Positions 3,439 to 41,604 of a stretch of DNA of 44,560 nucleotides are shown here, piece by piece. Both the position numbers and the translations under genes were made by a program. The notes under the pieces are model-generated. The model was not told the origin of the DNA. It ran no database searches and saw only the letters and a program-made list of their open reading frames with translations. How positions within the stretch are numbered: the first letter of the stretch is position 1; each line of letters begins with the position of its first letter. Where the stretch lies: the IMG/VR virus record IMGVR_UViG_3300026130_000372, positions 1 to 44,560 of that record, one strand, 5' to 3'. This stretch comes from a virus.

Positions 3439-3467
3439 ATAAATACCTGCATAATATGCAGGTATTT
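3439..3467 (+). terminator. Hairpin terminator with late promoter box in its left arm
   Basis: Two 13-base arms, AAATACCTGCATA (3441-3453) and its exact complement (3455-3467), are separated by a single A and end in a T run. A late box GATAAATAC (3439-3447) overlaps the left arm. RNA reading through from upstream contains both arms. RNA started from the late box would contain only the right arm, which also carries the weak AGG binding site of the next gene. Confidence 0.7.
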
Positions 3468-3469
3468 TT

Positions 3470-5470
3470 ATGAAAAGACTAAAGAAAAGTTTGTGCAGCA
3501 AGCGCACAGCCGTTAACCTTATAGGGTTAAGCAGCATCATCGTACTAGTAAGTATGATAGGGGTGTATGGTTACCATTATCTAGCTCACTCAGCCGATAA
3601 ATTTAGCATACAGTCACAGATACTACTGTTTATAGCAGGTATATTATTACTCAAGCGTCCGTTAAAAGGTCATATAACACACTGGCGAAGATTACTGCTT
3701 GTGTTAATAGGTTATGTTCTGCTGTCATATGTACCCGTAGGCTTGCGTGATATCGGCGGATGGGTTGATTATTTCTTCCAAAATACTTTTTATGGAGACA
3801 ACTTGACCGGTGTCAGCAGCGGATCCAGTCCTATAACACGACTAGGCGTACTATTGCTACTAATAGCAAGTTTATTATGTCCTAAAATCAAAAATGGCAT
3901 AAACGTTTTTTATGCTCTAGTTGGCGCAGTGGTATCTATACAAACAATCAATTTGTTGAGTTATATTGTTGAGGGCTCAAGTGTGTTACACCAGGGCACA
4001 AGCGTAGAAGTAATCTTGCTTACACTTGCTTACAGCATTGCTCTCTTATTCAAAAGCAGTTGGAAGTTTCCTATTCGCTATGCACTTCGCGACCCAAGCA
4101 CACGGCGTATGCAATTGTTTGCCTGGAACAGCATATGGGCAGTGCCGGTGATAATGCTAATTGGAGCGCATATATTCAGTCCTACAGATTTCGAACCTCG
4201 GCCTCAGTTTTACTTTTTATCAACTATAGGTGCTTGGGCTTACTACATTATTCTTGCACATTTCAACACTACTGTAGCACTAACAAGAACACGATTAGAA
4301 ATCAAGTCGCAGAAGATGCACAAGCTGGCTGTTACAGATTACATGACAGGAGCACCTAACCGAGCGGGCTTGCGCGAGTTCAAGGATCAGCACAGGAGCA
4401 CACCAATGAGTTTAATAGTGTTTGACATAGACCACTTCAAAAACGTAAATGATCGCTATGGACACGACACAGGTGACCATGTGATACGTACAGTATCTAG
4501 AACACTTCAAAAAAGCCTACGAATCAGTGACCCGTTTGTTAGACTAGGCGGCGAAGAGTTTCTAGTGATGCTGCCCAATACCAGCATAGAAGATGCAGAA
4601 GCAGTAGCAGAAATGTTGAGAGTGCAGGTAAGCGAACTAGATCCAGAAAACGATTTGTCTATTTTAGGGCCAATCACAGTCAGTTGCGGTGTAAGCGATT
4701 ATGCACCAAGACAAGAACACTTTGATGATGCTCACAGGAGGGCAGACAAAGCACTATATGTTAGCAAAAGAAATGGGAGGAACAGAACCACTGTGTTGGC
4801 AAAAGCGAGCTTTAATATTATAGAAAACTTTAAGCGTCCTGTTATATACGGACAAGAAATACGAGACATGCGAACTGAGACAGCAACAGCTATAGAACTG
4901 TTGGCAAGGATACCTGGAGTAGATCCAGAATTATGGTTTATGTCAGCACCTACAGATACTATTGCAGCACTATTTAACGATCAACTAGCAATAGCTCGTG
5001 ACGTACACCGTTCAACAGGTCTGATGCCTACTATCAATATAGATTCAGACTTGTTCAACACATTGGATTGGGATGAGATTGCTCAATTCATATGTGATAC
5101 TCCTATAGGCTTTGAGATTACACACATCAAAGGCTTGCCCGGACCTAATAAAGTAGCAGCCGCAAGACTTGCACTTCCCAGAACTGCTCTGCTGTTGTTT
5201 GATGACTATGAACCAAGGCATGAATCGATACTAGAACAATATTCAGTTGACATAGTAAAGATTGACAGGAACTATGTCAAACTAGATCCGCAGTCTGCTG
5301 CCTGTTCTGTAGAAAATATTGTAAACAGTGGTAAACGTGTGATAGTAGAAGGCATTGATCCAGAGGATTCTGAGTTAGAGCAGATGTTTATAGAAGCGGG
5401 AGCAGAATTTATACAAGGCTTCAAATACCACAAGCCAGAGTGTATACACGATTATATGTACAACAAATAG
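3470..5470 (+). CDS. Membrane GGDEF-EAL protein (c-di-GMP synthase/phosphodiesterase)
   Basis: The N-terminal 270 residues hold about seven or eight hydrophobic segments, so this is an integral membrane sensor. The GGDEF domain follows: DYMTGAPNR (290-298), the metal-binding FDIDHFKNVND (318-328) and an active-type GGEEF (360-364). RISD lies exactly five residues before GGEEF and matches the RxxD product-inhibition site. The C-terminal half is EAL-like and keeps E476, N523, E549, D578-D579, K597, E627 and Q649, but the usual DDFGTG loop reads DDYEPR and the EAL motif reads ELL. Synthesis of c-di-GMP is therefore likely and breakdown is uncertain. The start at 3470 sits directly after a hairpin with only a weak AGG site. 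It lies just upstream of two secreted-protein cassettes, and c-di-GMP enzymes are rare in phages. Confidence 0.9.
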   Translation: MKRLKKSLCSKRTAVNLIGLSSIIVLVSMIGVYGYHYLAHSADKFSIQSQILLFIAGILLLKRPLKGHITHWRRLLLVLIGYVLLSYVPVGLRDIGGWVDYFFQNTFYGDNLTGVSSGSSPITRLGVLLLLIASLLCPKIKNGINVFYALVGAVVSIQTINLLSYIVEGSSVLHQGTSVEVILLTLAYSIALLFKSSWKFPIRYALRDPSTRRMQLFAWNSIWAVPVIMLIGAHIFSPTDFEPRPQFYFLSTIGAWAYYIILAHFNTTVALTRTRLEIKSQKMHKLAVTDYMTGAPNRAGLREFKDQHRSTPMSLIVFDIDHFKNVNDRYGHDTGDHVIRTVSRTLQKSLRISDPFVRLGGEEFLVMLPNTSIEDAEAVAEMLRVQVSELDPENDLSILGPITVSCGVSDYAPRQEHFDDAHRRADKALYVSKRNGRNRTTVLAKASFNIIENFKRPVIYGQEIRDMRTETATAIELLARIPGVDPELWFMSAPTDTIAALFNDQLAIARDVHRSTGLMPTINIDSDLFNTLDWDEIAQFICDTPIGFEITHIKGLPGPNKVAAARLALPRTALLLFDDYEPRHESILEQYSVDIVKIDRNYVKLDPQSAACSVENIVNSGKRVIVEGIDPEDSELEQMFIEAGAEFIQGFKYHKPECIHDYMYNK

Positions 5471-5508
5471 CAAATGGCTCGTTTTGAGCCTATTTGCCAT
5501 GGTTTTTT
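5471..5508 (+). terminator. Rho-independent terminator after the GGDEF-EAL gene
   Basis: CAAATGGCTC (5471-5480) pairs with GAGCCTATTTG (5486-5496), with one bulged T and a short loop, and a T6 run follows at 5503-5508. It directly follows the stop codon at 5470. Confidence 0.65.
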
Positions 5509-5517
5509 ACAAATCGA

Positions 5518-5525
5518 CTAAATAC
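5518..5525 (+). promoter_or_regulatory. Late promoter-like box before the first secreted cassette
   Basis: CTAAATAC matches the variant late box used elsewhere in the window (for example 11859-11866). If used, it makes a leader of about 250 bases before the ATG at 5780. Confidence 0.4.
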
Positions 5526-5582
5526 GTTTGTAATAACAGCACTGAGGGCAATTCAGAGGGCTTTAGTTATTACCGTGATGGC

Positions 5583-5615
5583 CGAGGCGGTAAACACGTA
5601 AAAAATGGTACCTCG
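5583..5615 (+). ncRNA. Conserved-loop hairpin, copy 1
   Basis: The stem CGAGG (5583-5587) pairs with CCTCG (5611-5615) around a 23-base loop. The loop begins CGGTAAACACGTAAAA and ends ATGGTA. Copies 2 and 3 have the same loop length and nearly the same loop sequence but different stem bases that still pair, the mark of a structured RNA. I cannot assign it to a known Rfam family by eye. Confidence 0.6.
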
Positions 5616-5719
5616 AGCAAAGTTAGACTTTGGTTCGGGGGAGCTATTAATATCTTACTAACAACCCCATTCAATTTCTAACTATGCGTTTTACGTAGAA
5701 TTCTACGTGACGTGAAGGT

Positions 5720-5750
5720 TGAGAGGTAAACACGTTAAAAATGGTGCTCA
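5720..5750 (+). ncRNA. Conserved-loop hairpin, copy 2
   Basis: The stem TGAG (5720-5723) pairs with CTCA (5747-5750) around a 23-base loop that starts AGGTAAACACGTTAAAA and ends ATGGTG. It lies about 30 bases before the start of the first secreted cassette, so it could control translation there. The ATG inside the loop (5742) is in frame with the gene but is not the start, because the good binding site and the signal peptide begin at 5780. Confidence 0.6.
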
Positions 5751-5779
5751 CTATTGTTCGTAATAGGGAGGGCACAAGA

Positions 5780-6400
5780 ATGAACAAATCAATATTAGCA
5801 GCACTATTAGGTACTGCTCTATTCGCAACTACTGCTTCAGCAGTTCAACTAGATGTAACAGGTCCAGACAATGGCAACCTTGATTGGCTTGGCAGCATCG
5901 AATCAGCATGTGGTCTACAAGACTTCGTAGACGGTCGTGTTACAGCAAACATTAATCAAGACACACTTTCAAGCACATTCAGCGGCGGCGCTGTCGCAAG
6001 CGTAGACGTTCGTACTAATACTGACGGTTATACTCTTGTGCTTGGCGAGCCAAAACTACTTGATGCAGACACTGAAGAAGACATCTCACAATGGGCAGCA
6101 GAGTTTGATATCGATGCAAGTGCTACAGGTGTTGATCTAATGGGAAACAACGCAGGTACACTACAACAAAATAGCGCCGGTGATATTGTATTCACTAACG
6201 GCGGAAGCTATGAAGTAGAAGCAGATGCAACTGTATACGCTAACCTAAAAGGTGGTTTCCCAGCAGGTGACTACATTGTTCGTGTACCAGTAACATGTGT
6301 GCTTGAAATGAGTGGCAATGACGGAAGCGGTAACAAAGGTGTTGGCGTTGGCAATGGTGGCGGAAACGGCACTGGTAATGAAGGTCAAGGTAACGACTAA
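5780..6400 (+). CDS. Secreted two-cysteine pilin-like protein (cassette 1, gene A)
   Basis: This 206-residue protein opens with a clear Sec signal peptide (MNKSILAALLGTALFATTASA). The start at ATG 5780 follows AGGGAGGG; the longer frame from 5741 would run through the leader hairpin. The mature part has one Cys near its N-terminus (ESACGL) and one near its end (VPVTCVLE), a spacing that could form a disulfide joining the first and last strands of a beta sandwich. 'GDYIVRVPVTC' resembles the last strands of fimbrial or spore-coat-U-like subunits. A Gly/Asn-rich tail follows. Genes B, C and D follow, overlapped or closely spaced. The pilin-like role is inferred from architecture and from the chaperone-like gene next door. 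Confidence 0.6.
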   Translation: MNKSILAALLGTALFATTASAVQLDVTGPDNGNLDWLGSIESACGLQDFVDGRVTANINQDTLSSTFSGGAVASVDVRTNTDGYTLVLGEPKLLDADTEEDISQWAAEFDIDASATGVDLMGNNAGTLQQNSAGDIVFTNGGSYEVEADATVYANLKGGFPAGDYIVRVPVTCVLEMSGNDGSGNKGVGVGNGGGNGTGNEGQGND

Positions 6401-6768
6401 TGATAGGCAAAGTTCTAACAACACTTTTACTTTTGATAGCAGGCACAGCTCAGGCTGTGTCTATATATCCAAACGTAATAGAACTTGAAGGACAGCCAGG
6501 TGCAATAGCATCGGTACAAATGGAAGTATACGGACATCCTAGCTACGAAACTATTGAGTTTGTAAAAGTTGAAAGTATACGAGATGACAACGATCAAGTA
6601 CTAGCAACATTTGCGCTTGGATCAGAAGACAGATCATTTGTACCGATTGATATTGTTATCCCAAACATTGCGAAGGAGTATTACATATGCGCAGTATTAA
6701 AAAATTCACAATCTATGCGCTTGCGAGTTTGTTCATTGGTGCGAGCAGTGCCTACGCTGACACAATGA
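6400..6768 (+). CDS. Secreted one-domain chaperone-like protein (cassette 1, gene B)
   Basis: This 122-residue protein overlaps gene A by one base (TAATG). It starts with a signal peptide (MIGKVLTTLLLLIAGTAQA), followed by 'VSIYPNVIELEGQPGAIASV', which resembles the first strands of the PapD-type periplasmic chaperone N-terminal domain. It ends with a Cys pair (YYICAVLKN...RVCSLVRA) that the matching gene at 8129-8533 also has. Only one immunoglobulin-like domain fits the length, whereas classical pilus chaperones have two. Its last 82 bases overlap gene C in another frame. The chaperone call is a pattern match and needs a structure comparison. Confidence 0.5.
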   Translation: MIGKVLTTLLLLIAGTAQAVSIYPNVIELEGQPGAIASVQMEVYGHPSYETIEFVKVESIRDDNDQVLATFALGSEDRSFVPIDIVIPNIAKEYYICAVLKNSQSMRLRVCSLVRAVPTLTQ

Positions 6769-7100
6769 TCCCAGGATCACCGAGCGTAGTAGAAGGCGGC
6801 GACAGTGTTCGCGGCAGAGACGGAACAACTTGTAAGCAAGGAACATACCATAGTCCAACACTTGACTTTGGTATTACAGCAAACAATCTAGACAGCTATG
6901 ACGATACATTTGGTAATTTTAATCAAAATAGATCAAGAAGCGACGATGTAGGAGTCTACGCACGGGTTGTTATCCCTTTGGGTAACAACAAGATACCAAG
7001 AGTTGATTGTACTCAGTTGTATCAATTAGAAATACAACGATTACAAATGGAACTTGAAAGAATGCAAAACCAAGGGTCATCTAGTATTGTTGTAAGATAG
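6687..7100 (+). CDS. Secreted protein with C-terminal coiled coil (cassette 1, gene C)
   Basis: This 137-residue protein starts at ATG 6687 behind AAGGAG, inside gene B but out of frame with it. A signal peptide (ending SSAYA) precedes a mature region with 'GTTCKQGTYHSPTLDFGI', a beta stretch 'VGVYARVVIPLG', a second Cys (RVDC) and a terminal heptad-like helix (LYQLEIQRLQMELERMQ). The gene at 8475-8879 has the same order: Cys, beta stretch, Cys and helix. It may be a periplasmic or outer-membrane partner of gene A. I do not recognise the family. Confidence 0.6.
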   Translation: MRSIKKFTIYALASLFIGASSAYADTMIPGSPSVVEGGDSVRGRDGTTCKQGTYHSPTLDFGITANNLDSYDDTFGNFNQNRSRSDDVGVYARVVIPLGNNKIPRVDCTQLYQLEIQRLQMELERMQNQGSSSIVVR

Positions 7101-7110
7101 GAGACAGATA

Positions 7111-7497
7111 ATGAACTCACAAGACAATGACAATAATAACAATAATAACGATAACCAACAGAGAAGAAGGAGCGACCTTACGATGCAACCAGCAACAGTG
7201 TTAAGCATAGCATTTGCTTTTTTTAGTTTGATCTGGGCTGGCGGCACAGCCTATCAAAGATTAGTATATCTTGAAAGTTGGAAACATTCACATGAATCAG
7301 AAGTAATGACTAGAGCGAGTAAGTCTGATTTAGTTGAGTTAACCAGTAGAATGGAAGCTGAACTAGCGATGGTTACTCAACATCTTGAGGCTGAAGTGCA
7401 AATGGAACGTGCTTTCAGTAGATCATTATGTGTGGCTTTATCGCATACTCAGACGGCAGCAAATGTTCCTGTTACAAACGATTGCGCTAGACCTTAA
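7111..7497 (+). CDS. Single-pass membrane protein with coiled coil (cassette 1, gene D)
   Basis: The 128-residue product begins with an Asn/Asp/Gln-rich cytoplasmic segment, then a single membrane span near residues 28-48 (ATVLSIAFAFFSLIWAGG), then a helical region suited to a coiled coil and a short tail with two Cys. AGGAGA precedes ATG 7111. The gene at 9129-9521 has the same plan and the same position after its cassette. Candidates are an anchor for the secreted proteins or a spanin/holin-like lysis component. The sequence does not decide between them. Confidence 0.55.
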   Translation: MNSQDNDNNNNNNDNQQRRRSDLTMQPATVLSIAFAFFSLIWAGGTAYQRLVYLESWKHSHESEVMTRASKSDLVELTSRMEAELAMVTQHLEAEVQMERAFSRSLCVALSHTQTAANVPVTNDCARP

Positions 7498-7546
7498 GCC
7501 AGGGGGGGCGAAAGATTTAGCTAATGCTAACGCTAACGTGCAGGAG

Positions 7547-7587
7547 CAAGGAGGCAAACACGTAAAAATTGGTGCCTTGATTTTTTT
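7547..7587 (+). ncRNA. Conserved-loop hairpin, copy 3, followed by T7
   Basis: CAAGG (7547-7551) pairs with CCTTG (7575-7579) around a 23-base loop starting AGGCAAACACGTAAAAA. A run of seven T follows at 7581-7587, so this copy could also end transcription. It lies between cassettes 1 and 2, about 30 bases before the next ribosome binding site. A terminator joined to a conserved loop is the usual arrangement of a riboswitch-type attenuator; here that is inference. Confidence 0.6.
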
Positions 7588-7618
7588 AACATTATAATAT
7601 ATTATAGGAGAACATATA

Positions 7619-8116
7619 ATGAAAAAATCAATTATCGCAGGTGCAATTGTTGCACTAATGTCAACTTCAGTTTTCGCTAACGAAAACTTCAAGATTGAAG
7701 GCTCTGCAACTGGTTTAGCGGCAGGTTGCTCTTTCTTTGCAGTTACTGACGGAAGCATGGCTTGGGATGAGTCTGTAAGCACTTGGTACACTCAAAACCC
7801 AGCTGCTATTCGTATCAAAACTCGTGACGTAGTATCAGTAGATATTACTAACGATGGACAACTACGTGATACTGTAGGTGCAGTAGATACACCAGAGTCT
7901 ATTGATTACACTGATTCAACTGTTAATACAGAAAACGCTCGCAACGCTGGTGTTATCGATCCAGTTGTTACAGAAGACAAGTACTCTGTAACTGAGCTAG
8001 CTGGTGGTAACGTATTGAACATCAAAGTAGATCACACTGTCAAGACAACTGATTCATTTGTTGCTCTAAACGATGTGGCTTACCACGTTCAAAACACTGC
8101 AACTTGTGTGCAGTAA
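7619..8116 (+). CDS. Secreted two-cysteine pilin-like protein (cassette 2, gene A)
   Basis: The 165-residue protein has a Sec signal peptide (MKKSIIAGAIVALMSTSVFA) and starts at ATG 7619 behind ATAGGAG. The mature part is beta-rich with one Cys near its start (AAGCSFF) and one two residues from its end (TATCVQ), the same layout as the gene at 5780-6400, although residue identity is low and the Gly/Asn tail is missing. Genes B and C follow directly. It is probably a second, diverged subunit of the same kind of assembly. The conserved-loop hairpin with T run sits just upstream. Confidence 0.6.
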   Translation: MKKSIIAGAIVALMSTSVFANENFKIEGSATGLAAGCSFFAVTDGSMAWDESVSTWYTQNPAAIRIKTRDVVSVDITNDGQLRDTVGAVDTPESIDYTDSTVNTENARNAGVIDPVVTEDKYSVTELAGGNVLNIKVDHTVKTTDSFVALNDVAYHVQNTATCVQ

Positions 8117-8128
8117 TAGGAGATAGTG

Positions 8129-8533
8129 ATGCAATCAATTAAACTAATGATTGTATCCTTACTCTTTGGAGTCGTGGCATCGCAAGGTGCCATGGCTCAC
8201 TCAATGACGCCGGGATACGAAAAGATATTTGCACCAGGTACTGCTAAAAGTATCAGGTACACAGTTAAAAATGATTATGATTACCCTGCCACATTTAGGG
8301 TAGAAGTCTATGACAAGTACGGAGAAGAACTTGAAGTAGATTGGAAAGTTGACAAAGAAGCATTCAAACTATTCTCAGACGCAAGCCAAAGAGTAAACGT
8401 CAAGATTAGAATGAAAGAAGGCATAAAAGAAAGAAAGGTTCTAGTATGCTCGGTACTAGACAAGGTTGGATATAATGACGAAGAACCTGCTACCATTAGT
8501 CGTGTTTGCAGTCGTCTATGGCTCTGGCGTTAA
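8129..8533 (+). CDS. Secreted one-domain chaperone-like protein (cassette 2, gene B)
   Basis: The 134-residue product starts at ATG 8129, six bases after AGGAG; the GTG at 8126 is too close to the site. A signal peptide ending in GAMAH is followed by 'MTPGYEKIFAPGTAKSIRYT' and 'VKNDYDYPATFRVEVYDKYG', close to the pattern of a PapD-type chaperone N-terminal domain (Pro-Gly loop, a strand with V-x-N, then a Pro and an R-V-E strand). The C-terminal Cys pair (VLVCSVLD...RVCSR) matches cassette 1 gene B. Its end overlaps gene C by 59 bases out of frame. Of the two B proteins this one shows the chaperone pattern more clearly. Confidence 0.6.
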   Translation: MQSIKLMIVSLLFGVVASQGAMAHSMTPGYEKIFAPGTAKSIRYTVKNDYDYPATFRVEVYDKYGEELEVDWKVDKEAFKLFSDASQRVNVKIRMKEGIKERKVLVCSVLDKVGYNDEEPATISRVCSRLWLWR

Positions 8534-8879
8534 TGCTGCTGGAGTCACTGACAAGTATAGGTCAGAGTCAGGAGCAGAGTGTACTGCTTCTTACGAAGAC
8601 AACCAAAGATTTGAGTTTGGGTTCGAAGGCGATCCAAACGCAAGAGACGAAGGCGCTTTAACCATCGTAGGAAAGTATGTGTACACGTTTGGCGGAGACA
8701 AGAATAGATCAAGGCTGAACTGTTTCACAACACAAAGATTAGAAGAAGAACGCATGATGATTGAAAATGAAAGATTGCGTTTAGAACTGGAACTGTTAAA
8801 GATCCAAGTAGAAGCTGAGAAGAACGCTTCAAAAGATCAAGTAACAGTTACAGACACGGGTTCAGACGACGACTGGTAA
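8475..8879 (+). CDS. Secreted protein with C-terminal coiled coil (cassette 2, gene C)
   Basis: This 134-residue protein starts at ATG 8475 inside gene B, out of frame. It has a signal peptide (MTKNLLPLVVFAVVYGSGVN), then 'GAECTASYEDNQRFEFGF', a beta stretch 'GKYVYTFGG', a second Cys (RLNCF) and a long charged helix (QRLEEERMMIENERLRLELE). This mirrors the gene at 6687-7100, including the out-of-frame overlap with gene B. It ends with an acidic Asp tail. The role is unknown; it is probably a secreted partner of the pilin-like protein. Confidence 0.6.
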   Translation: MTKNLLPLVVFAVVYGSGVNAAGVTDKYRSESGAECTASYEDNQRFEFGFEGDPNARDEGALTIVGKYVYTFGGDKNRSRLNCFTTQRLEEERMMIENERLRLELELLKIQVEAEKNASKDQVTVTDTGSDDDW

Positions 8880-8917
8880 CAGTCTAGTCAACGGGTTGCC
8901 CCCCGGCAAGTGCAGGA

Positions 8918-8947
8918 GAGGTGGAAGCACTATAATCTAGGTACCTC
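8918..8947 (+). ncRNA. Conserved-loop hairpin, copy 4 (diverged)
   Basis: GAGG (8918-8921) pairs with CCTC (8944-8947) around a 22-base loop that begins TGGAAGCACTATAATCTA and ends GGTA. The loop aligns with copies 1-3 but is less conserved. GTGCAGGAG precedes the stem here and also before copy 3. A small hairpin TTGCC/GGCAA with a C4 loop (8896-8909) lies just upstream. The TATAAT in the loop could serve as a -10 element. Confidence 0.4.
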
Positions 8948-9002
8948 CCTAATAAATTGTAGAGAGATTTGCAATGCTTTTAACAAAGAGACAAAGCGTG
9001 AT

Positions 9003-9119
9003 ATGAAAAAGCTAATAACTGCTAAGTTCAAAAGTTGGAATATGATACACTACATAATTGTGCTATCTCCAATAAGTATAGTTATAGTTGCATTAATTGC
9101 AGCTCAATTCATGTTATAG
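9003..9119 (+). CDS. Very small single-pass membrane protein
   Basis: This is a 38-residue reading frame (MKKLITAKFKSWNMIHYIIV, then a hydrophobic run ending AAQFML). A short basic N-terminus is followed by one membrane span. The start at ATG 9003 has only a weak purine-rich region upstream (AAAGAGACAAAGCG). An upstream extension in the same frame runs through the copy 4 hairpin and is probably not translated. It lies between cassette 2 gene C and the gene D-like protein and stops ten bases before the latter starts. It could be a small holin-like or accessory protein. Confidence 0.45.
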   Translation: MKKLITAKFKSWNMIHYIIVLSPISIVIVALIAAQFML

Positions 9120-9128
9120 GAGAAAAAC

Positions 9129-9521
9129 ATGGCAGGTAATGTAGAAAATTTCAAGGTAAGCCTTGGCGTACTGTTTGTGGTATTGCTACAAGGTGGTGCG
9201 TTTGTTTGGTGGACAGCACAACAAGCAAGCACACTAGAGCAGTTGGCAATAACCGTTGGCAAACTAGAACAAAAAATAGATGACGGTAAATTAGTTATTA
9301 TCCAGCGAGATATTAAAGATTTGCACGAAGATATAGAAGTATTGCAAAAGAGCATGACCTCTATGCAGCAGTTGCATTATAATGATATGCGAGGCGCATA
9401 CGATAAGTTCAAAGAACATGAGAACATGATTACGTATAGCGCAACTATAGATGAGCTAAATGATGTGATAGATGATCTAGAAGAACTTGAAGGCAAGCTA
9501 GAAGATATCGGCATTAATTAA
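9129..9521 (+). CDS. Single-pass membrane protein with long coiled coil (cassette 2, gene D)
   Basis: The 130-residue protein starts at ATG 9129 behind AGGAGAAAAAC. One membrane span lies near residues 11-30 (VSLGVLFVVLLQGGAFVWW), followed by about 95 residues of charged heptad-like helix (LEQLAITVGKLEQKI, 'DIKDLHEDIEVLQKSM', and an acidic C-terminus). The plan equals that of the gene at 7111-7497. It closes the cassette region and is followed by a terminator. A membrane anchor or spanin/holin-like role fits equally well. Confidence 0.55.
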   Translation: MAGNVENFKVSLGVLFVVLLQGGAFVWWTAQQASTLEQLAITVGKLEQKIDDGKLVIIQRDIKDLHEDIEVLQKSMTSMQQLHYNDMRGAYDKFKEHENMITYSATIDELNDVIDDLEELEGKLEDIGIN

Positions 9522-28410: not shown

Positions 28411-29979
28411 ATGTTCTTAGCGATATTAACTTTAATTACAGCCCTTTCGATTAGTGCTGTTGCAATATACTATTCTGTCGCAGGCCTTATGACTATCTTT
28501 GCTGCGGCAGCTATACCTATTATGATTATGGGCGGCATACTAGAAGTTAGCAAACTAGTCACCGCAGTATGGTTGCATAGATATTGGAGACAAGCTACAT
28601 GGTGGCTTAAATCTTATCTAACTACAGCCGTAATTGTCCTTATGTTTATTACAAGCATGGGTATCTTTGGCTTCTTATCCAAAGCACACATTGAGCAAAC
28701 TGCAAGTGCCAACGAAGGCATTGCACAAATTGAACGCATTACAAAAGAAATTGCCCGCAACGAAGAAGTTATTGCCAGAGCTGAAGCAAAGATTCAAGAT
28801 TTAGAAACATCAGGAACTGGGGCTACCACACAACTACAAGAACAAATTGATCGTGAACAGCAACGTATTAGCACAGCATACGAGCGTATACAACCTGCTA
28901 TTGACGAACAAAATGCTATCATTGCACAGCAGTCGCAATTATTCCAAAGCGAGCTAGACAAAATTGATACTGACCTTGCTAAACTACAAGGCTATATTGA
29001 CACAGGTGAAATTGCTAAAGCACAAGGTATGGTAGGTGCTAAAGCAGATGGTGCATATGGTCCTAGGACTGCGGCAGCATTTACAGCATATCAAGAACGC
29101 AAAGCACAGGAGCGTGATGTGTGGCTACAGCGTATACAAGATGCTGCACAGTCGCCTGTAGTAATAGCAGCCCGCGAAGAAATTAAACGATTACGTGCTA
29201 ATGCCGACGAGCAAATTGCACAGTCAAATGCACTTATCAACAACCTAAGAGACCAATTAAAGTCTAACAACGGTAATGATCTTCAAACGATATTAAACGA
29301 ACAAAACGAACGTGTCCGTACTGCATCGAATGAGATCGATCGATTGATAGATGAAAAATTTTCGCTCGAAGCAGACTACCGTAAACTAGAAGCAGAAGTA
29401 GGTCCTGTAAAATACATTGCTGAGTTTATCTACGGTGAACAAGCAGATACTAACTTATTAGAAGAGGCAGTACGTTGGGTTATCATTACAATTATATTTG
29501 TCTTTGACCCGCTTGCTGTACTATTATTGATTGCAAGCCAATACACGTTTGAATTACACCGCAGACGTAAAGACGATCAACAGGAGAGTCTTCGGCTCGA
29601 AAAACAAGAACAACAGTTAAATGACAACACTAGCAATAATATTATTGCTCCTCAAGTACCTCAAGAAGAGAAAGGACAAGTAGATGACCATATTGTATCT
29701 GACGATGTTGGAACCGGAGATAATGGAGGAGACTCTACCAACGGAATGGCTGTGGCCGAACAAGAAATAGACACTCGCACAGAAGAAGAAATTAAACGCA
29801 CAAACGAATACGAAATAAAAGAACAATCAATTGATTGGAAGGCAGCTAAACACGCATGGAAAGACAAGCATCCAAATGAGACACTCAAAGAGTGGAAGTA
29901 TAGATATATACGTGGAGAAATAGATAGTTTACCATGGGAAGAAGATGCACACAATCAATCTAATAACAGCACCGGATAA
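28411..29979 (+). CDS. Large membrane coiled-coil protein with peptidoglycan-binding-like segment
   Basis: The 522-residue protein starts with three membrane spans (first 100 residues, including 'AIPIMIMGGILEVSKLVTAV'), then 250 residues of coiled coil, a fourth span near residues 352-374 ('WVIITIIFVFDPLAVLLLIA') and a charged tail. In the coil, 'QGMVGAKADGAYGPRTAAAF' looks like a peptidoglycan-binding type-1 repeat. I recall this membrane/coil layout from marine T4-like phages. It could tether the membrane to the cell wall during infection. The start has no binding site and a late box nearby. Confidence 0.6.
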   Translation: MFLAILTLITALSISAVAIYYSVAGLMTIFAAAAIPIMIMGGILEVSKLVTAVWLHRYWRQATWWLKSYLTTAVIVLMFITSMGIFGFLSKAHIEQTASANEGIAQIERITKEIARNEEVIARAEAKIQDLETSGTGATTQLQEQIDREQQRISTAYERIQPAIDEQNAIIAQQSQLFQSELDKIDTDLAKLQGYIDTGEIAKAQGMVGAKADGAYGPRTAAAFTAYQERKAQERDVWLQRIQDAAQSPVVIAAREEIKRLRANADEQIAQSNALINNLRDQLKSNNGNDLQTILNEQNERVRTASNEIDRLIDEKFSLEADYRKLEAEVGPVKYIAEFIYGEQADTNLLEEAVRWVIITIIFVFDPLAVLLLIASQYTFELHRRRKDDQQESLRLEKQEQQLNDNTSNNIIAPQVPQEEKGQVDDHIVSDDVGTGDNGGDSTNGMAVAEQEIDTRTEEEIKRTNEYEIKEQSIDWKAAKHAWKDKHPNETLKEWKYRYIRGEIDSLPWEEDAHNQSNNSTG

Positions 29980-32625: not shown

Positions 32626-32931
32626 ATGAGTACATCTACCGACGTAGTAATCGACGAAAAGATTAAACAAGAAATCAGCGAACCAATTAAATACAACGTG
32701 ATTTTTCTAAATGATGATCACACCCCTATGGATTGGGTCGTTAACGTACTAACTGAAATATTTAAGCACAGTCAAGAATCTGCAGAACGTATCACTCTTA
32801 CGATACATACAGAAGGAAGTGGAGTTGCAGGAACGTACAGTCACGAAATCGCTGAGCAAAAAACAACCGAAGCAATTAATGCAAGTAGAAATAATGGTTT
32901 CCCACTTAAAATTACAATGGAGGCAGAATGA
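32626..32931 (+). CDS. clpS: ClpS-type protease adaptor
   Basis: The 101-residue protein has the ClpS pattern: 'KYNVIFLNDDHTPMDWVVNV' with the NDDHTP segment that lines the N-degron pocket, and 'HTEGSGVAGTYSHEIAEQKT'. Start ATG 32626 has GGAG six bases upstream; ATG 32614 would place the site inside the gene. ClpS delivers N-end-rule substrates to ClpAP. A phage copy may redirect host proteolysis. It overlaps the heme oxygenase gene by four bases (ATGA). Confidence 0.93.
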   Translation: MSTSTDVVIDEKIKQEISEPIKYNVIFLNDDHTPMDWVVNVLTEIFKHSQESAERITLTIHTEGSGVAGTYSHEIAEQKTTEAINASRNNGFPLKITMEAE

Positions 32932-33524
32932 CTAGTTTAAAAGAACTAACTAGAGAGCATCATACAAATGCAGAACGACAAGAATTTGTTAATGTTCTAA
33001 TGAGCGGAAAAATAAATCCAAAATTTTACGCAATATACCTATTCAATCAATTTACAAAATATTCATTATTAGAAGATTTAATAATAGGTAATATACCAGC
33101 AGCTAGAGATGTAATGCAGAGGATAGAACGTAGACATAAAATACATGAAGATTTTATTGAACTGTGGGACGATCCTGCTAACCCACCTGAATTACTAGAG
33201 GCAACTCATGATTACATGCAACGTTTAATCGAGTTTGCTACTAATGATAAAATCGATAAAAAATTGTTGCTAGCACATATGTATGTACAACATATGGGAG
33301 ATCTAAGCGGCGGCCAAATGATAGCAACAAAAGTTCCTGGCGAAGGTAAGATGTATAAATTTAATGATGATGTAGAGATTCTTAAAGACGATATACGTGA
33401 ATTGCTATCTGGTAAGGAAGCATTACTAGCTGAAGAATCTAAGTTTGTATTTGAAAGTGCAACTAAACTTTTCCAAAATCTAATGGAGCTAGACATTGAG
33501 CATTATATGGAATCATCTGATTAA
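32928..33524 (+). CDS. Heme oxygenase (biliverdin-forming)
   Basis: The 198-residue all-helical protein carries the heme-oxygenase signatures: 'LKELTREHHTNAERQEFVNV' with the proximal heme-ligand His near residue 11-12, and 'HMYVQHMGDLSGGQMIATKV', the distal GDLSGG helix (124-129). It opens heme to biliverdin, CO and iron using ferredoxin electrons. The next gene is a bilin reductase, so the pair runs heme to a bilin pigment, as in cyanophages and some oceanic phages. It is translated from the ATGA overlap with clpS. Confidence 0.93.
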   Translation: MTSLKELTREHHTNAERQEFVNVLMSGKINPKFYAIYLFNQFTKYSLLEDLIIGNIPAARDVMQRIERRHKIHEDFIELWDDPANPPELLEATHDYMQRLIEFATNDKIDKKLLLAHMYVQHMGDLSGGQMIATKVPGEGKMYKFNDDVEILKDDIRELLSGKEALLAEESKFVFESATKLFQNLMELDIEHYMESSD

Positions 33525-34182
33525 TTGTCAGAACGAAATTATTAAAATATTTGACAGTTATGCAACAGAATACGAAGAACCAGGTCTTGCTCACTTTAAT
33601 AACGATACTTGGATCAACCGCGTTTGGCATAGTGATAGTGTGCGCAGGGCGCACATTGATGTCGTAGATGCACGTGAAACGAAAGGCTTATGGATGATGC
33701 ATGTAACTGTCATGCCGCAACTAGACAATGATGCACCTATCTTTGGATTTGATGTTATTGCAGGAAAAAACAAAATGACAGGTGCATTCCTTGACTTTAG
33801 TGCAAGCTCTAATCCAGATCATCCTATGATGCACGGCTATGCTGAAAGTGTAGCCGATTTTATTCCTAAAAAGAAACGTGAACTACCTGACTGGGCTAAA
33901 AATATCTTCTCAGAACACATGCTTGCCGCAGGCAATGTAAACACAGAAGAAGAAGCAGTTGCTATTATTCAACTGGCACTTGACAATCTACAAGCATACT
34001 TCGAAGAAGTAGCAGAGTACACAGGAGACGGTGACCCAGAAGAAGTTAAATCAGCACACAACTATTACGCACACAATCAGCAACAGAATCCGCACACACC
34101 AAGAACAATGAAGAGTCTAGGTCTAAACGAAGACGATGTAGACTTGTTCTGCAGAGACATGTTGTTCCCCAAGATTGCATAA
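33496..34182 (+). CDS. pcyX: Ferredoxin-dependent bilin reductase (PcyX/PebS-like)
   Basis: The 228-residue protein fits ferredoxin-dependent bilin reductases: 'ETKGLWMMHVTVMPQLDNDA' leads into 'PIFGFDVIAGKNKMTGAFLD', the family's strand with catalytic Asp/Glu neighbours, and the C-terminal 'LFCRDMLFPKIA' mirrors the FV-x-DFLF end of PebS/PcyA. It follows heme oxygenase directly, so biliverdin is the likely substrate and phycoerythrobilin a likely product (PcyX and PebS do four-electron reduction). The start is unclear: a TTG at 33496 overlaps the upstream gene by 29 bases and there is no in-frame ATG until residue 67. Which product is made cannot be read from sequence alone. Confidence 0.82.
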   Translation: MSIIWNHLINCQNEIIKIFDSYATEYEEPGLAHFNNDTWINRVWHSDSVRRAHIDVVDARETKGLWMMHVTVMPQLDNDAPIFGFDVIAGKNKMTGAFLDFSASSNPDHPMMHGYAESVADFIPKKKRELPDWAKNIFSEHMLAAGNVNTEEEAVAIIQLALDNLQAYFEEVAEYTGDGDPEEVKSAHNYYAHNQQQNPHTPRTMKSLGLNEDDVDLFCRDMLFPKIA

Positions 34183-40380: not shown

Positions 40381-41604
40381 ATGTTAGGCAGACTCAAATT
40401 TGATATTACACAACTTGTAGACGAGATTTTAGATCAACTTCCGAAAGAAGTATGGTCTAGTTCTACTACAACTTTTCTAGATCCTGCTATGGGCGGCGGG
40501 CAGTTTGTTTCAAATGTTGAAAATCGACTACGTAACGCAGGACATTCTACTGAAAATATTGCATCACGGGTTTACGGATATGAATCTAATCGTATGAGAA
40601 TCAATTTTGCCGTAAATAAGTACATGTTAGTAGGCACATATACTAATAAGAATTTTTTAGAGGCAGAGAGTAATATGAAATTTGATGTAATTGTAGGCAA
40701 TCCACCTTATCAAAATCCAGGCAAATCTAAAGGAGAAAAGCTCTGGTATCGATTTATTAGAAAATCTGTAGATTTACTGAATGACGATGGGTATCTTGCG
40801 TTTGTTACTCCAAATAGTTGGATGACAGGCGGCACAAACATGTCTAGCGGCAAATGGGGTGTATTAAAAGATGTATTCTGCAATTATCAATTAATTTATG
40901 CAAATGTACATAATGTAACTAAAAGATATTTTCCAAAAATCGGAATTCAAATATCTTACTGGGCAATGCAAAAAAGTAAAATTACAAAAAATAGTGTAAT
41001 TGAACTTGAAGATAAAACTATTGAGATTGATCTTACTAAAGCAGACATTCTTAGCTCAGAACCGAATAGTTTATCAATGAGCGTAGTTAATAAAGTATTA
41101 CATAACAAATCTAACGAAGTATTTGAAGTACAGTATTTCCAACATCATACAAAGCCAGGTACATATCATGAAGAAGATACTCCAAAAGACGAATATATTT
41201 ACGCTCATTGGATAATGGGTTCTGATGCTACAAACGATTTAAGTATTAAATATATCAATTTTGATAAAAGCCCTAAGATTCGATACAATAAGATTGTAAT
41301 GCCTGTAACAACTAGATACTGGCAACCATATTTAGATTTAGATAGTATCGGGGCATTAGCACAAGGTTATGCAATAAAAGTTGATAATGATGTAACACAA
41401 GACGGATTTAAATCTGTATTTTACAGTAATATATTTCGGTACATTAATAAAACACTGCAAATTGATAAAACTGGGTGTATGAAAACAAACATTGTTAGAA
41501 AGCTGCCCAAGCTAGATATGAGTAAGATTTGGACAAACGATCAATTATATAAACATTTTGGCTTAACACAAGAAGAGATTGATTACATTGAATCGTATAA
41601 TTGA
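40381..41604 (+). CDS. N6-adenine DNA methyltransferase
   Basis: The 407-residue protein has the SAM-binding motif I 'TFLDPAMGGGQFVSN' (34-45) and the catalytic motif IV 'FDVIVGNPPYQNPGKSKGEK' (NPPY 107-110), in the order of type IIG/Eco57I-like and type I N6-adenine methylases. 'RFIRKSVDLLNDDGYLAFVT' follows as typical. The second half may recognise DNA. It probably methylates phage DNA to resist host restriction, or forms part of a phage-encoded modification system with the helicase next door. It has its own host-type promoter. Confidence 0.9.
   Translation: MLGRLKFDITQLVDEILDQLPKEVWSSSTTTFLDPAMGGGQFVSNVENRLRNAGHSTENIASRVYGYESNRMRINFAVNKYMLVGTYTNKNFLEAESNMKFDVIVGNPPYQNPGKSKGEKLWYRFIRKSVDLLNDDGYLAFVTPNSWMTGGTNMSSGKWGVLKDVFCNYQLIYANVHNVTKRYFPKIGIQISYWAMQKSKITKNSVIELEDKTIEIDLTKADILSSEPNSLSMSVVNKVLHNKSNEVFEVQYFQHHTKPGTYHEEDTPKDEYIYAHWIMGSDATNDLSIKYINFDKSPKIRYNKIVMPVTTRYWQPYLDLDSIGALAQGYAIKVDNDVTQDGFKSVFYSNIFRYINKTLQIDKTGCMKTNIVRKLPKLDMSKIWTNDQLYKHFGLTQEEIDYIESYN

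Follow-up and report, generated by a model that had tools for sequence, protein, structure and literature searches.

The preQ1-I and SAM-II riboswitches consist of two crossing helices with an A-rich third loop and lie near the ribosome-binding site, and in T4-type phages RNA structures such as the gp32 pseudoknot serve as operators to which proteins bind. T4-like cyanophages carry the manA and wcaG RNA motifs (PMC2864571), virus-encoded diguanylate cyclases have been described in marine viromes (PMC7785012), and PfsE of Pf phage acts on a host surface apparatus to exclude superinfection (PMC8764522). Here we examined a leader and gene block in IMG/VR virus record IMGVR_UViG_3300026130_000372, the whole of which (44,560 bases, hereafter the window) was analysed; the record is possibly part of a larger genome. 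The block combines a GGDEF-EAL membrane protein gene, four short leaders (w1 to w4) and two runs of genes for exported proteins (cassettes 1 and 2, A-B-C-D). We read it, with a probability of roughly 0.55, as a late-expressed, envelope-directed phage module in which exported A-B-C proteins and membrane protein D are under post-transcriptional control by an H-type pseudoknot leader, with the GGDEF-EAL gene co-inherited.

Pseudoknot leaders in front of exported-protein genes

All six copies of the leader, four in the window and two (l1 and l2) in a diverged second phage, L011, fit one H-type pseudoknot. Stem S1 is present in every copy, as CGUG/CACG or, in w4, as AGUG/CACU; stem S2 has 4-5 pairs. 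Loop 1 reads N(A/U)GG.., loop 2 is mostly AGGYAAA and loop 3 mostly WAAAAWUGGUR. The loop of three of the four window leaders is AAACACGTWAAAAWTGGT, for which 0 matches were expected from 100 shuffles, and in w4 the loop has diverged while the fold is unchanged, with S1 compensated. The fold is shown by covariation: among the five regular copies, native S2 strand combinations gave 24/25 Watson-Crick pairs compared to a mean of 13 when strands were swapped, and the native combination was the best of all 120 permutations. Compensatory change was seen at 5/5 S2 pairs on both strands, the covariation score was reached in 0/500 shuffles, and sliding the S2 register destroyed pairing. Single-strand folding, which does not model pseudoknots, accordingly revealed no exceptional stability by itself. 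The initial annotation had listed four conserved-loop hairpins after the enzyme gene; the four elements are real, but they are better read as small H-type pseudoknots than as simple hairpins, and one of them does not share the loop.

In both phages the 3' end of the pseudoknot lies about 30-40 nucleotides (nt) upstream of the A1 and A2 starts; w4 stands upstream of a small membrane open reading frame (ORF) and D2, not of a whole cassette. Compensatory helix changes and a conserved position before genes, the marks of a structured cis-regulatory RNA, were both observed. The best explanation of the sequence pattern is a previously undescribed, cis-acting H-type pseudoknot leader that would control translation. 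The repeats do stand at module boundaries, and w1 and w2 are in tandem with no gene between them, as might be expected of DNA-level modules (promoters or recombination linkers duplicated with the cassettes) that have no RNA function. However, stem letters vary among copies while pairing is retained, and S1 is compensated in w4: these changes largely contradict a DNA-level origin, which we consider very improbable.

The structure descriptor used for searching left the loop sequence unused but required loop 1 to contain GG and loop 3 to end in GGTR. It recovered exactly four copies in the 44.5-kb window and only the six known copies (four in the window, two in L011) in the ~579 kb examined, many loci of which overlap. 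A covariance model, R1, scored 56-63 bits for the five copies from which it was built and missed w4; its weak partial matches elsewhere (13-27 bits) were without the structure. Loop-sequence matches in other viral contigs were rejected as mostly chance, in other contexts and lacking S2, with L011 alone real: among 35 chance matches, none had an S2 of at least 4 pairs and one had S1. No Rfam family, including the c-di-GMP-I and c-di-GMP-II riboswitch models (c-di-GMP, cyclic diguanosine monophosphate), matched the leaders at the gathering threshold or at E up to 5. An exact-form motif scan of 84,980 species genomes gave nothing beyond one chance site, in Bartonella, from which S2 is absent. The leaders are a candidate new RNA family, so far seen in phages only. 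An NUG in loop 3 was considered as a start codon and rejected for want of conserved reading frames.

The S2 3' strand can pair with the ribosome-binding site in w1 and l1 and less clearly in w2 (scores as high in 0/200, 16/200 and 38/200 shuffles, respectively), suggesting that the pseudoknot keeps translation on. Formation of S2 would leave the downstream ribosome-binding site open; in the cassette-1 leaders at least, the S2 3' strand may alternatively lie in a hairpin that covers this site, and binding of a ligand or protein to the leader would then turn translation on.

The bound partner may be a protein (a phage translational regulator, RNA polymerase in the manner of antitermination, or a ribosomal protein) that determines when or in what proportions the late cassettes are expressed; the GGDEF gene would then be a neighbour with its own promoter. 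The gp32 operator offers a precedent, loop 1 is AGG-rich like a ribosome-binding stretch, copies precede several units in one block, and a probable terminator and a new late promoter lie between the enzyme gene and w1. No binding protein was identified, however, and other phages that carry these cassettes lack the pseudoknot. We hold this explanation as a tentative but serious one.

Leader w1 is followed, within 5574-5668, by a hairpin and a Shine-Dalgarno-like GGGGGAG with no start codon, and may be what remains of a lost cassette. After w4, a ten-codon frame (MLLTKRQSVI, 8974-9006) overlaps the start of the 38-amino-acid membrane ORF (ATGA), possibly for translational coupling.

The GGDEF-EAL gene and c-di-GMP

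The same gene order, a search for which was proposed with the initial annotation, is present in L011, which holds enzyme, leaders and cassettes as in the window, collinear as GGDEF and EAL (separate genes), pseudoknot, A1-B1-C1-D1, pseudoknot and A2. Left of the block, the L011 genes are without counterparts at the corresponding position in the window. Because L011 keeps the order with a different left flank, the enzyme-leader-cassette block appears to have been inherited together. Identity between the two phages is about 30-31% for the enzyme, 70-87% for the cassette proteins and 36-43% for D1, and the enzyme is therefore either fast-evolving or replaced. The EAL parts are similar to each other and have no comparable match among isolate phages, which favours a common origin.

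The GGDEF domain matched its Pfam family at E=1.7e-37 (129 bits in the window and 119 bits in L011; cut-off 23.8). The inhibitory RxxD site (RISD, residues 351-354, nt 4520-4531) and the active site (GGEEF, residues 360-364, nt 4547-4561) are intact, as the annotation of a GGDEF-EAL membrane protein had stated. L011 has GGEEF and RSGD, so that both sites are retained despite the low identity of the enzymes. The EAL part scored 18.1 bits, under the Pfam cut-off of 31.3; it is homologous (BLASTP 3e-23) to the stand-alone L011 EAL protein, which itself matched Pfam at 2.4e-25 (89.7 bits). Candidates for the metal- and substrate-binding residues of EAL (E of EAL, N, E, DD, K, E, Q), assigned by eye, can be read in both proteins (ELLAR, NID, FEIT, DDY, KID, VEG). 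The canonical loop 6, DFG(T/S)GYSS, is absent from both (DDYEPRHES in the window, DDYDMNNMK in L011); judged by these residues, the EAL half is divergent and its loop 6 degenerate in both phages. Activity as a diguanylate cyclase is likely and that as a phosphodiesterase uncertain, since GGEEF and RxxD are intact, the main EAL residues are kept by eye and loop 6 is degenerate. An exact-peptide-pattern scan of viral contigs for GGDEF proteins gave no matches.

In the records checked, the leader motif and GGDEF/EAL are present together in the window and L011 and jointly absent from four other cassette-bearing phages: Thalassavirus Bennett, Vibrio phage D93, the jumbo Klebsiella phage Eowyn and a 72-kb virus contig, which may be incomplete, carry A-B-C without GGDEF, EAL or pseudoknot. 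Enzyme and leaders are also adjacent, and a c-di-GMP-II riboswitch is located upstream of a pilin gene in C. difficile (PMC3649979). This pattern would suit a pseudoknot forming a new class of c-di-GMP riboswitch, with the phage GGDEF protein making the signal and the exported cassettes coming on when it rises. However, because the two positive phages are relatives, their co-occurrence of leader and enzyme is effectively one observation; neither known riboswitch family was matched, and host pathways may simply be the target of the enzyme. We consider such a riboswitch unlikely, c-di-GMP being one candidate ligand of the leader RNA. The full closed circuit, in which the phage's own cyclase and a very small new riboswitch class in four copies would switch the exported cassettes on late, is less probable still. 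A PilZ receptor was sought in the window and none was found.

The single c-di-GMP system proposed in the initial annotation therefore stands in part: the block was co-inherited, but four records have A-B-C without the enzyme, so that the cassette has no fixed tie to c-di-GMP. Two findings together had been named as telling against that proposal, leaders that bind no nucleotide and cassettes without the GGDEF-EAL gene; these four phage records provide the second half. Should the cyclase be active, c-di-GMP from the enzyme could push the host to a sessile, envelope-remodelled state in late infection.

Exported cassettes and their genomic setting

Every A, B and C protein has a signal peptide and exactly two cysteines. 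By sequence comparison the two cassettes are alike only distantly: C1 and C2 matched at E=0.0016 and A1 and A2 at E=2e-4 with 45% probability, the B1/B2 likeness was not significant, and D1 and D2 are 14% identical with no homology detected. Two exported runs exist as first described, but close duplication was not supported. The overlap of B with C recurs in all phages examined (Vibrio, Klebsiella and others). Homologues of C were found in ~190 phage records, mostly Vibrio (~180 are Vibrio phage records), and B1 is homologous to a Vibrio B protein (E=3.9e-6). A match of locus L012 to A2 was rejected, being weak and in a differing neighbourhood. Modules that encode three exported proteins, with B overlapping C, were also noted at L018 9244-10396, L014 4214-5520, L015 4202-5478 and L024 3670-4923; in Vibrio phages the module lies near tail-fibre and lysis genes, and in Eowyn the order is B-C-A.

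The pilus-like structure predicted initially was not borne out. Three features would suit a pilus or fimbria that is assembled with a chaperone and displayed by the infected cell: the A, B and C proteins are all exported with one likely disulphide each, A ends in the AG-Y-x-V-x-C pattern seen in exported beta-sandwich proteins, and AlphaFold models B as a single immunoglobulin (Ig)-like domain of ~100 residues, an Ig/PapD-like sandwich. The top PDB match of B1 in Foldseek was a PapD-like domain (template modelling score, TM, 0.54), but immunoglobulins match equally; folding of the proteins, suggested earlier as a check, gave a general fold for B and a poor model for A (mean predicted local distance difference test, pLDDT, 46). 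Profile searches of the PDB with A and B gave chance matches only, and no pilin or PapD family (Pfam) was matched by proteins of the window or L011. B has one domain and no PapD family match, in contrast to a two-domain PapD-type chaperone. No usher (PF00577) was detected in the window, which may be a fragment, or in four related records, with an E. coli control positive. A pilus is therefore a lead rather than a finding, and a doubtful one.

An envelope role of the cassette products fits their predicted export and late timing. They may act in the envelope of the infected cell, for example by masking receptors or excluding superinfection.

Several observations weigh against the envelope-directed, leader-controlled module that we favour. 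The motif was seen in two phages only, which are relatives of each other, and w1 is not directly followed by a gene of its own. The alternative pairing of the S2 3' strand was not seen in w3, w4 or l2; the switch mechanism is therefore not general and may differ between leaders. Finally, the envelope role is drawn from signal peptides and a general fold only.

The window is from a T4-like environmental virus of bacteria, and its structural proteins are similar to their counterparts in T4-like cyanophages and other marine phages. ATAAATA/TAAATAC boxes are nearly all intergenic and several lie 30-64 nt upstream of gene starts, suggesting T4-type late promoters. Within 3439-9521 the order is a late promoter-like box, GGDEF-EAL, a probable terminator, a second late promoter-like box and the leader-cassette units (w1, w2, A1-B1-C1-D1, w3, A2-B2-C2, w4, small membrane ORF, D2). 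The hairpin and T run after the enzyme gene are likely a terminator, and the cassettes are therefore probably a separate transcription unit from GGDEF-EAL. The hairpin before the gene could be a terminator of upstream genes or a cover of the ribosome-binding site.

Features of the enzyme-leader-cassette block, in window coordinates
Feature	Position	Strand	Basis or remark
T4-type late promoter-like ATAAATAC	3439..3446	+	31 nt upstream of GGDEF-EAL start; ATAAATA/TAAATAC scan
Perfect 13-bp hairpin	3441..3467	+	inverted repeat directly 5' of GGDEF-EAL start codon
GGDEF-EAL membrane protein, 666 amino acids	3470..5470	+	Pfam and motifs; EAL half confirmed via L011
Hairpin and T run 3' of GGDEF-EAL gene	5470..5508	+	sequence; stem core listed on other strand too
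Late promoter-like CTAAATAC upstream of w1	5518..5525	+	ATAAATA/TAAATAC scan
Pseudoknot leader w1	5574..5615	+	structure descriptor, covariation; tandem with w2; Shine-Dalgarno-like stretch without start codon after
Pseudoknot leader w2	5710..5750	+	structure descriptor, covariation; upstream of A1
A1, exported, two Cys, Gly/Asn-rich tail	5780..6400	+	start most likely 5780; homologues in L011 and L018
B1, exported Ig/PapD-like sandwich, two Cys	6400..6768	+	AlphaFold pLDDT 80; Foldseek
C1, exported, overlaps B1, C-terminal heptad-like helix	6687..7100	+	phrog_37374 7.7e-9; homologues in Vibrio phages and others
D1, one transmembrane segment, coiled-coil-like C-terminal part	7111..7497	+	likeness to L011 D1
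Pseudoknot leader w3	7536..7579	+	structure descriptor, covariation; upstream of A2
A2, exported, two Cys	7619..8116	+	87% identical to L011 A2 over 67 amino acids; resembles Vibrio phage A
B2, exported, two Cys	8129..8533	+	weak homology to B1
C2, exported, overlaps B2	8475..8879	+	
Pseudoknot leader w4	8909..8947	+	structure descriptor without loop sequence; loop diverged, fold kept
Small membrane ORF, 38 amino acids	9003..9119	+	sequence
D2, one transmembrane segment, coiled coil	9129..9521	+	

Elsewhere in the window, a heme oxygenase-like gene adjoins a ferredoxin-dependent bilin reductase gene (PF05996, 7.9e-19; 32928-34182), a pair of a kind known as marine phage auxiliary genes. An Eco57I-type DNA methylase and a tetraspanin-like membrane protein are encoded at 40381-41604 and 28411-29979. 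A search for PADLOC defence families gave no convincing match.

Comparison with known systems

The block brings to light a widespread, unnamed phage module of exported proteins, together with a candidate family of small pseudoknot leader RNAs with strong covariation support. Should a small molecule prove to be the ligand of the RNA, the virus would have a compact switch for timing envelope changes by host-made or self-made signals. Like manA and wcaG, which precede genes for host metabolism or surface change, the leaders resemble structured cis-regulatory leaders of marine T4-like phages; they differ in being compact (~42 nt) H-type pseudoknots without an Rfam match that stand before exported-protein genes. 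With preQ1-I and SAM-II they share crossing helices, an A-rich loop 3 and proximity to the ribosome-binding site, whereas the conserved loops are others and no Rfam sequence match exists. A c-di-GMP riboswitch of type I or II would similarly link a diguanylate cyclase to surface genes, but neither family is matched by the leaders.

The virome diguanylate cyclases (PMC7785012) and Bacillus phage SP-15 are likewise cases of a phage-borne GGDEF enzyme, in records not seen with the leader RNA or cassettes found here. PfsE offers an analogy of a phage protein at the host surface, and no relationship to the cassettes is claimed. A likeness in gene content exists to Thalassavirus Bennett and its relatives, in which genes annotated as hypothetical have the same A-B-C order and B/C overlap, after tail-fibre-like and before lysis genes; those phages have one cassette and neither GGDEF/EAL nor pseudoknot, whereas the window has two cassettes, the enzyme and four leaders.

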